Below are positions 4,087 to 33,442 of a DNA stretch of 36,007 nucleotides, piece after piece (the stretch's first letter is position 1; each line of letters begins with the position of its first letter). The stretch spans positions 1 to 36,007 of the forward strand of contig JAUNJB010000010.1 in assembly GCA_030535375.1 (NCBI GenBank). Direction: 5' to 3'. Made by a program: the position numbers and the translations under genes. Source of the DNA: Clostridia bacterium (lineage in GTDB: Bacteria; Bacillota; Clostridia; Christensenellales; Aristaeellaceae). The notes beneath the pieces were generated by a model that was not told the DNA's origin, did no database searches, and saw only the letters and a program-made list of their open reading frames with translations.

Positions 4087-4425
4087 AAAAGCGCGCCGTG
4101 CGCGCTTCCACTTCCGAAGCGCTTCAACACTCCGAAGTATTTCTGTGCTCGCTGTCCGGTTTTTCGCGCAATTTCCTGGCGGCCAGCGGCCACTTCCACT
4201 TCCGAAGAGCTTTGCAAATCGAACGATTAAGGCGAACGTGCCCGTCTTTGCGTAATTTCCTATCAAGCAAAAAGGCCGTGGGATCATTCCACGGCCTCGG
4301 TGTATTGACATAAGCATCGCCGCCGTCCATAGCGGGGTGTATTCTTCCGGCTATTGCCCGGAGTCCCCTTCCGGGGAAAATATCCCTTCATCGACGGTCT
4401 GTGGCCGCGGGATCATTCCGCGGCC
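4087..4425 (-). repeat. Tandem post-terminator modular element, locus A
   Basis: Read on the minus strand: hairpin 4403-4425 (GGCCGCGG/CCGCGGCC), conserved spacer 4297-4402, hairpin 4274-4296 (GGCCGTGG/CCACGGCC) with TTTTT, module A1 (4273 to about 4193), GC hairpin about 4179-4192, module A2 (4178 to about 4106), then hairpin 4091-4105 (GCGCGC-CGT-GCGCGC) followed by TTTT. A1 contains AGGAAATTACGCAAAGACG and A2 contains AGGAAATTGCGCGAAAAACC; both end in a GGAAGTGGAAG-type tract. Related modules lie at 13963-14047, 21832-21911, 22170-22256 and 33361-33410. The rest of the gap (3852-4086) must contain the start signals of the 2256-3851 gene, but I recognise no promoter or gene there. Confidence 0.7.
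4274..4296 (-). terminator. Intrinsic terminator of the small acidic-protein gene
   Basis: An 8-bp perfect GC-rich stem (GGCCGTGG/CCACGGCC) is followed on the minus strand by TTTTTGC. It lies 141 nt past the stop at 4437. A near-identical hairpin at 4403-4425 sits directly after the stop codon but lacks a T-tract. Confidence 0.65.
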
Positions 4426-13892: not shown

Positions 13893-13924
13893 CTTCTTCC
13901 AAGCTTTTCTTTCCATATTGTTTG

Positions 13925-13962
13925 CCGGAAGGCGCAGGCGGATATTCCCCTGCGCCTTCCGG
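13925..13962 (+). terminator. Intrinsic terminator of the htrA-like gene
   Basis: A 14-bp perfect stem (CCGGAAGGCGCAGG with CCTGCGCCTTCCGG), 10-nt loop, then CTTTTTGCC. It lies 33 nt past the stop codon. The T-tract is also the start of the locus D module. Confidence 0.9.
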
Positions 13963-14050
13963 CTTTTTGCCTGATAAAATGGCGTAAAAACCGGCCGCGT
14001 TCGTACTCATCGGGCGATTTGCAGCGATTTGGGGAAGGGGAAGCGCCCAC
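13963..14050 (+). repeat. Post-terminator module, locus D
   Basis: Directly after the htrA-like terminator, the plus strand reads CTTTTTGCCTGATAAAATGG, then CGTAAAAACCGGCCGCGTTC, CTCATCGGGCGATTTGCAGC and finally GGGGAAGGGGAAGCGCCC. The same order and direction relative to transcription occur in A1, B and C. This is the only plus-strand copy, and the only terminator here that serves a plus-strand gene and is followed by a module. Confidence 0.7.
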
Positions 14051-14163
14051 TGGTGCATCCGGCATGCGCCCCGATCCCCCTGGGATTCTTTTCCCTTGAT
14101 TGATCCGCCGCATCGCTGTACAATGATGTCAGCAATCGCGCGGCCAAAGGAGCTGACCTGTCC

Positions 14164-21811: not shown

Positions 21812-21947
21812 AAAAGGCGGCCAATGGCCGCTTCACCCTCCCGATAATCGCCGCAAATCGCCCGATGAGGGCGAACGCGGCCGTTCTTTACACAATTCCT
21901 ATAAAGCAAAAAGCGGGGCGCACACCCGGCTGCGGTGCGCGTCCCGC
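21812..21947 (-). repeat. Post-terminator modular element, locus C
   Basis: Minus-strand order: rubredoxin terminator hairpin 21913-21947 with TTTTTGC, module C (about 21911-21832, containing TTTATAGGAATTGTGTAAAG then CTCATCGGGCGATTTGCGGC), and a second hairpin GCGGCC-AAT-GGCCGC (21817-21831) followed by TTTTG. The hairpin-module-hairpin-T layout matches locus A. Confidence 0.7.
21913..21947 (-). terminator. Rubredoxin terminator
   Basis: Imperfect GC-rich hairpin (GCGGGGCGCAC against GTGCGCGTCCCGC, one bulge) followed on the minus strand by TTTTTGC, 8 nt past the stop at 21956. Confidence 0.75.
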
Positions 21948-22111: not shown

Positions 22112-22256
22112 GATCTCGTCTCCTTTCAGACTGTTTTCCTTATCTTGGCCCGAAGAACGCGGATTCATGCGCGCTCCCACTTCCGAAAACCACTGCAAAT
22201 CACCCGATGAGGACGAACGCACCCGGTTTTTACGCAATTTCCTATAAAGTGAAAAA

Positions 22257-22276
22257 GGAGCAGCCAAAGCCGCTCC
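22257..22276 (-). terminator. Terminator within locus B
   Basis: GGAGCAGCCAAAGCCGCTCC forms a 7-8 bp stem with one A/C mismatch and a CAAA loop, followed on the minus strand by TTTTTC. Together with its perfect twin at 22369-22388 it should end NfnBA transcription and limit read-through into rubredoxin. Confidence 0.7.
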
Positions 22277-22277
22277 T

Positions 22278-22368
22278 CACAGTTTTTCGGCATAAGCATA
22301 GCTGCCGTCCATGGCGGGATAGATTTGTCCAGCCGCTGCCCGAAGGATGTTTCTCCAAAAATTTGAAA
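22278..22368 (-). repeat. Conserved peptide-like spacer between twin hairpins
   Basis: On the minus strand one frame reads LRAAAGQIYPAMDGSYAYAE then KL and TGA, with the stop touching the next hairpin. The locus A copy (4297-4402) reads LRAIAGRIHPAMDGGDAYVN in the same alignment. Several differences are synonymous third-position changes (GCC/GCT, ATA/ATC, GCT/GCC). No ribosome site precedes the internal ATG, so translation is unproven; it may be a decayed gene end. Confidence 0.5.
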
Positions 22369-22401
22369 GGAGCGGCCAAAGCCGCTCCCCTTCAAATCGC
22401 C

Positions 22402-33353: not shown

Positions 33354-33360
33354 TGAGTAT

Positions 33361-33410
33361 TTCCGTGCCCGCTACCCGGTTTTTCGCGCAATTTCCTGTA
33401 AGTCAAAAAA
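33361..33410 (-). repeat. Post-terminator module, locus E (shortened)
   Basis: On the minus strand after the terminator of the 33487 gene: TTTTTTGACTTACAGGAAAT, then TTGCGCGAAAAACCGGGTAG and GGCACGGAAATACTC. It stops at the end of the convergent beta-helix gene (33353). It is closest to module A2 (4178-4106), which shares GCGCGAAAAACCGG and GAAATACT, so the family has at least two subtypes. Confidence 0.65.
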
Positions 33411-33442
33411 GGGACGTCAAGGTTTTCTCGCCTTGACGCCCC
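33411..33442 (-). terminator. Terminator of the 33487 gene
   Basis: GGGACGTCAAGG with CCTTGACGCCCC (one A/C mismatch, 8-nt loop), minus-strand T-tract TTTTTT, 45 nt past the stop. Confidence 0.85.

Follow-up and report, generated by a model that had tools for sequence, protein, structure and literature searches.

The stretch of DNA analyzed here, a window of 36,007 nt that is contig C131 of a Clostridia draft genome (G000; 3,300,972 bases in 265 contigs), carries six short non-coding modules at five predicted intrinsic terminators. We consider it quite probable that these modules are non-autonomous mobile elements with terminators as their landing sites. A mobile element targeting terminators was among the readings offered in the original prediction, and it is strongly supported by copy number, by docking behind terminators and by orientation in the sense of the upstream gene.

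Modules in the window and their anatomy

All six predicted modules are present, at or near the positions first proposed for them. The modules and the host terminators behind which they sit are as follows.

4274..4296, minus strand: host terminator hairpin of site A, then TTTTT
4179..4268, minus strand: module A1, type I; linker GCTTGAT and AGGAAATTACG up to the end hairpin GGCCGCTGGCC
4087..4178, minus strand: module A2, type II; directly joined to the A1 end hairpin, no T-run between them; right end GCGCGCACGGCGCGC and TTTT
13924..13963, plus strand: host terminator hairpin of site D, 3′ of an HtrA-like gene
13969..14056, plus strand: module D, type I; left end eroded to ATAAAATGGCG
21913..21947, minus strand: host terminator hairpin of site C, 3′ of a rubredoxin-like gene
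21812..21907, minus strand: module C, type I; end hairpin GCGGCCATTGGCCGC and CTTTT
22257..22276, minus strand: host terminator hairpin of site B, 3′ of an NfnB-like gene
22169..22251, minus strand: module B, type I; right end eroded
33411..33442, minus strand: host terminator hairpin of site E
33356..33404, minus strand: module E, a remnant of type II, truncated to model positions 2-52

Modules B, D and E have an eroded or cut right end. Every module had been said to begin in a T-tract, which is true of five of the six only, since A2 is fused to the end hairpin of A1 without a T-run. The names given to the upstream genes held in part. Pfam domains identify the gene upstream of module D as HtrA-like (Trypsin_2 and PDZ) and that upstream of module B as NfnB-like (Fer4_20 and Pyr_redox_2), and the rubredoxin-like gene upstream of module C was read by eye from its frame, but the proteins that had been called acidic and 'SH3' matched no Pfam family at E 0.001.

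A module unit is ~95 bases long and consists of a short linker, AGGAAATTGCG, internal hairpins, an end hairpin of its own and usually a T-run; a complete unit covers everything between the ends of two successive T-runs. The linker has seven bases, and its commonest form depends on the species (GCTTTAT, ACTTTAT or GACTTAT in G000; GCCATAT in G096, a related species). The single shared core that had been proposed survives as a common left end (AGGAAATTGCG) and a purine tract around GGAAGTGG, but the middle differs and divides the modules into two types: type I (A1, B, C, D) with the signature ..CGTTCG..ATCG..CGATTTGC.., and type II (A2, E) with ..AGCGRGCAC.GAAA.., in which the CTCATCGGGCGATTTGC stretch is absent. 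Complete modules of both types also share a feature that had gone unmentioned, a terminal GC-rich hairpin of their own, usually followed by T. The sequence of this end hairpin is variable and its pairing is kept. By eye, the consensus has no inverted copy of the left end ATAGGAAATTGCG at the right end, and GTGG is found 5′ of the right hairpin in many copies of the genus and not in the other families read. GTAG is absent from the module consensus.

To describe the structure, we aligned 24 sequences (18 from relatives in the same genus and 6 from G000) and named three helices. In these helices, 89.3% of the cells are paired and 35 cells are double-changed, versus at most 42.3% and at most 14 when the partner is slid by 1-3 columns, a control that flatters the helices because they were named from the same 24 sequences. 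The double changes are distributed as none in helix 1, 15 in helix 2 and 20 in helix 3, which is the end hairpin. RNAalifold alone gives a different fold for helix 2, and two of five measures do not clearly beat the shuffles (pairs with a double change, 49/500; pair types, 188/500). On this alignment, one internal hairpin clearly covaries.

We note a separate repeat at two of the sites in the window. At site A (4274-4425) and site B (22257-22388), the host terminator hairpin occurs in two copies, separated by 129 and 112 bases, respectively; between the copies lies a homologous stretch (..CCCGCYATGGACGGCRGCKATGCTTATG..). The same stretch is found with 3-6 mismatches at three further loci (L030, L205 and L241), and it looks like a second dispersed repeat around which the hairpin is duplicated at sites A and B. 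Duplication of the host hairpin as a general insertion footprint was rejected, as it occurs in only 2 of 98 array heads.

Docking behind host terminators

Docking was measured on 103 of 131 arrays in G000, namely those whose left end is intact and whose 70 upstream bases are known. A run of at least three T lies within 20 bases upstream in 102 of these 103 heads, leaving one head without. A hairpin of -10 kcal/mol or better that ends no more than 3 bases from the T-run is found in 91 of the 102 heads, versus 38 of 102 after shuffling; with the threshold at -8, the counts are 95 and 48, and seven heads have no such hairpin. The median hairpin energy is -18.3 kcal/mol, compared with -7.0 for shuffled sequences. 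The distance from the end of the T-run to the AGG of the module is 6-8 bases in 87 of the 102 heads. The host hairpins themselves appear unrelated in sequence; they are kept, and the T-run lies on the same side of the module in 102 of 103 heads.

The modules also follow the direction of the genes. Among 108 heads, the called neighbor within 400 bases upstream is in sense orientation in 80, antisense in 7 and absent in 21, so that 80 of the 87 called neighbors are in sense; no called gene overlaps any of these 108 heads. The prediction had named as its test a large copy number with almost every copy beside a terminator and in the sense of the gene, and this is what we observe (205 core matches versus 10 in the control described below, 102/103 heads and 80/87 neighbors). 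Within the sampled loci, 84 of 250 sites with a strong hairpin and a T-run are followed by a module left end, which is not a genome-wide rate because these loci were chosen for their modules.

Copy number and arrays

The core pattern AGGAAATTRCGYAAA, with up to 2 mismatches, matches G000 205 times, versus 10 for the backward pattern. A profile model of type I (from 34 modules) matches G000 at least 140 times and one of type II (from 28 modules) at least 139 times; these counts are floors, given that 141-142 candidates were scored in each model search. When nhmmer was run on 131 sources (130 loci and the window; 341,652 bases with overlaps, 320,396 distinct), at least 287 module places, whole or partial, were distinguished by contig coordinate in this sampled tenth of the genome. 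These 287 places hold 286 unique module sequences; the best match is type I at 147 places and type II at 140, and 231 places are at least 80 bases long. A module starts within 300 bases of a contig start at 38 of the 287 places, which suggests that modules probably break the assembly of G000 and that the true copy number is probably higher.

Modules are commonly arranged in tandem. The 131 arrays of the sampled G000 loci, including those cut by contig ends, comprise 46 with one unit, 45 with two, 20 with three, 15 with four and 5 that are longer, up to a maximum of eight. Inside the arrays, the T-run is a less constant feature: of the 104 internal modules whose left end is intact, a T-run precedes 62 and not the other 42, and 94 of 156 internal junctions have no run of four T. 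The predicted start in a T-tract therefore applies genome-wide to array heads (102/103) and fails for these 42 internal modules. One T-less composite junction (GGCCGCTGCGC) was found 16 times at 14 loci, and this recurrence indicates that pairs of modules probably also spread together. In search of an autonomous parent copy, we inspected array ends that carry half modules for a gene flanked by the two ends of the element; such array ends look like truncations, gaps or contig ends.

T-runs on both sides of a unit could be read as a target duplication, a reading that the data do not favor: the lengths of the left and right T-runs are uncorrelated (rho 0.06, n=54). One of three identical copies in G096 moreover has an extra C between the T-run and the linker. 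Both observations make it likelier that the right T-run is the element's own, and it is probably not a target duplication.

Copies at unrelated sites in relatives

In G096, three module sequences occur in identical form at 3, 2 and 3 unrelated terminators, out of 16 distinct module sequences at 21 sites. The median similarity of type II copies is 0.84 within G000 and 0.88 within G096, higher than the 0.72 between the two genomes; for type I copies in G000 it is 0.78. Type II matches are found in 19 of the 29 genomes of the genus, G000 being one of the 29, and type I matches in 13; 10 of the 29 have no match to the type II model.

Positions are seldom shared between species. No module is present at site A in any of 24 loci from other genomes of the genus, a set in which two loci have no upstream gene visible and several match the gene only partly. 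An upstream frame is present at 39 array heads in relatives, and at five of them the upstream protein is similar to one upstream of a G000 array; three are plausible orthologues (94, 74 and 50% identity) and two are more distant (32 and 27%). No base-exact empty site was found among the relatives, in which the site A gene is at most 85% identical and the terminators are unalignable. The queries used found no copies on viral contigs, phages or plasmids. Taken together, the identical copies at unrelated terminators, the result at site A (0/24) and the small number of shared sites point to modules that are mobile, as judged by comparison of genomes.

These data also bear on a function for the host. 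Modules could be 3′ elements selected as back-up terminators, RNA stabilizers or protein platforms and copied by ordinary recombination, and it is true that complete modules add a hairpin and usually a T-run, that arrays resemble serial terminators and that the structure is kept. Yet positions differ between species, type II matches are lacking in ten genomes of the genus, and identical copies at unrelated sites need both copying and targeting. We find this explanation quite unlikely. The RNA 3′-end element or binding platform suggested originally may be a side effect of the modules, but it does not explain the species-specific sites, the identical copies at unrelated sites or the arrays.

Carriers in other clostridial families

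Relatives show the same docking as G000. In a set of same-genus loci together with the genomes G175 and G176, 48 of 52 heads have a T-run, and 47 of these 48 have a hairpin of -8 kcal/mol or better, versus 19 after shuffling. A search of 144 other family members, all outside the genus, with the longer core mostly gave few matches, the highest excess being 13 versus 1 in the control (G020). With the shorter left end TATAGGAAATTGCG and one mismatch, G173 has 60 matches versus 0 in the control. This shorter pattern was then applied to 391 genomes of the class, among which G203 (41 versus 6), G434 (42 versus 2), G464 (35 versus 1) and G353 (24 versus 5) stand out.

Up to 12 loci were read in each of these distant genomes. 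A T-run precedes 10 of 12 heads in G173, 8 of 10 in G434, 6 of 6 in G203, 7 of 7 in G464 and 5 of 5 in G353. A hairpin of -8 or better accompanies 5 of the 6 T-run heads in G203 (0 after shuffling) and all 5 in G353 (1 after shuffling); the hairpin test is weaker in G173 (5/10; shuffled 1), G434 (5/8; shuffled 1) and G464 (5/7; shuffled 0). All five genomes display similar docking and the same left end, with unrelated interiors. On these sequence comparisons, the same left end and docking, joined to unrelated interiors, is present in other clostridial families. Two further candidate carriers were rejected: Acetobacterium, with 3 matches versus 1 in the control and one of them behind a hairpin and T-run, and an Actinomycetes MAG, with two records and no terminator.

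Other repeats and RNAs were seen near these loci. At locus L281, another repeat-like stretch (..CCTCCCCTTTCAGGGGAGG..) lies directly behind a module left end. In G096, a raiA RNA lies near a module array (L172, 428-633, plus strand). In G266, a MITE at L326, L336 and other loci has inverted ends, TATAGGTAATTGCG, that resemble the module left end, with no terminator docking.

G266 had been considered as a carrier (24 matches versus 3) and was rejected because its matches belong to this MITE, which has inverted ends and no terminator link. It serves as a negative control, with a T-run in 4 of 8 heads and a hairpin in none of these 4. The comparison is relevant to the idea that the modules are ordinary REP- or MITE-like repeats that insert anywhere and survive only behind terminators. 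The space behind terminators is safe, and REPs are placed downstream from coding regions (PMC3733652), although the part of that paper available to us does not mention docking behind existing terminators. Survival alone gives no reason for a single orientation or for the 6-8 base spacing from the T-run, and the MITE of G266 has a look-alike end and does not dock. We regard this explanation as very unlikely.

Search for a mobilizing enzyme and known RNAs

Searches for reverse transcriptase, Y1 transposase and IS110 families found no mobilizing enzyme common to the carriers. PF00078 (RVT_1) is absent from G000, G135, G161, G071, G160 and G159, of which G000, G135 and G071 are ~93% complete; in G096, a single RVT_1 match exceeds the cut-off (E 4.4e-12, in a 458-aa frame). 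PF01797 (Y1) is absent from G096, G161 and G160, and has four partial matches in G000. PF01548 (IS110) is absent from 9 of 12 carriers and has a match in the other 3. Each of the three was rejected as a shared resident mobilizer, being missing from several carriers, and we note that such absence is moderate evidence, as draft genomes can miss genes. The module left end TTATAGGAA is reminiscent of a Firmicutes dif arm, and for this reason a dif-like (Xer) pattern was searched in 18 genomes; nothing was clearly above the control, the largest excess being 6 versus 3 in G434. Neither the window nor seven module loci gave an Rfam intron match, and no module matched an Rfam family above the gathering score. 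A BcKCsr7 match near module locus L290 (E 0.19; 25 bits versus a gathering score of 59) is at chance level.

These results weigh on a route through RNA, in which reverse transcription of a short transcript that ends at its own terminator would switch template to the 3′ end of a second terminated transcript, and the product would be recombined into the genome. A unit bounded by the ends of two successive T-runs resembles a terminated RNA, the paired structure is kept, and G096, which has recent copies, is the genome with the RVT_1 match. Group IIC introns, too, are reported as RT elements able to target terminators (PMC4424553). The six carriers without an RVT_1 match, three of them ~93% complete, and the lack of an Rfam intron match in the window and the seven loci speak against this route, which we judge unlikely.

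Discussion

We assign the modules to none of the known systems with which we compared them, and they behave like a non-autonomous mobile element. Integron cassettes are head-to-tail units, each ending in a hairpin that is recognized by its structure and doubles as a target; unlike them, the modules have no genes inside and many separate landing sites. IS200/IS605 elements move without target duplication. Like these elements and REP/RAYT, as far as the sources available in part describe them, the modules have subterminal hairpins and a putative single-strand logic; they differ in that no Y1 match was found in G096, G161 and G160, in that the consensus has no GTAG, and in that the module target includes the hairpin.

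Terminators are known targets of other elements. Group IIC introns insert at intrinsic terminators and show that RT elements can target them (PMC4424553), so they have the class of target in common with the modules, and by analogy the target choice of the modules would otherwise be known from these introns. Group IIC introns, however, consist of a ribozyme and a reverse transcriptase, whereas the modules are ~95 bases long, have no Rfam intron match and occur in six carriers without an RT match. IS1272/TnSha1 of the IS1182 family targets terminator hairpins without target duplication (PMC4923244); according to the portion of that report available, it removes part of the hairpin and can insert in either orientation, while the modules leave the hairpin intact and take one orientation. 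Pneumococcal BOX elements are short and modular, and SPRITE elements are terminator-like and enriched near the 3′ ends of genes (PMC3049150), but docking behind an existing terminator and a self-renewing target are not described in the accessible part of that paper. We found no description of terminator-docking modules among the open-licence papers searched.

For a mobile element with terminators as landing sites, we propose the following mechanism. Because the unit typically ends in its own hairpin and T-run, a copy recreates the kind of site behind which the unit sits, and arrays would grow in this manner. The machinery may read 'hairpin then T-run' both as the right end of the element and as the target, and the left end of the element would be joined to the end of the host T-run with no target duplication. 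It would act on one strand only, with folded single-stranded DNA as the favored form. A guide function is possible for the conserved AGGAAA, which could base-pair with the T-run across a loop of 6-8 bases; we liken this pairing to the partly consulted account of IS200/IS605, in which the guide that pairs with the target adjoins the hairpin (PMC6006769). An insertion that follows a terminator and supplies a second one should be nearly neutral for the host.

Beyond this, we tentatively suggest that the modules may represent a new class of mobile element, one that uses intrinsic terminators as attachment sites, moves by single-strand, structure-reading recombination and has 'hairpin plus T-run' as both right end and target. 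Its members would be non-coding cassettes that have the left end in common, differ in their interchangeable interiors and form arrays behind genes in several Clostridia families. If this is true, these bacteria harbor a mobile element whose choice of site depends on terminator shape and follows the sense of the gene, and which restores its target as it lands. Such behavior would amount to a safe-harbor strategy, could supply the host with serial terminators and would offer a route to an undescribed enzyme that reads a hairpin plus T-run.
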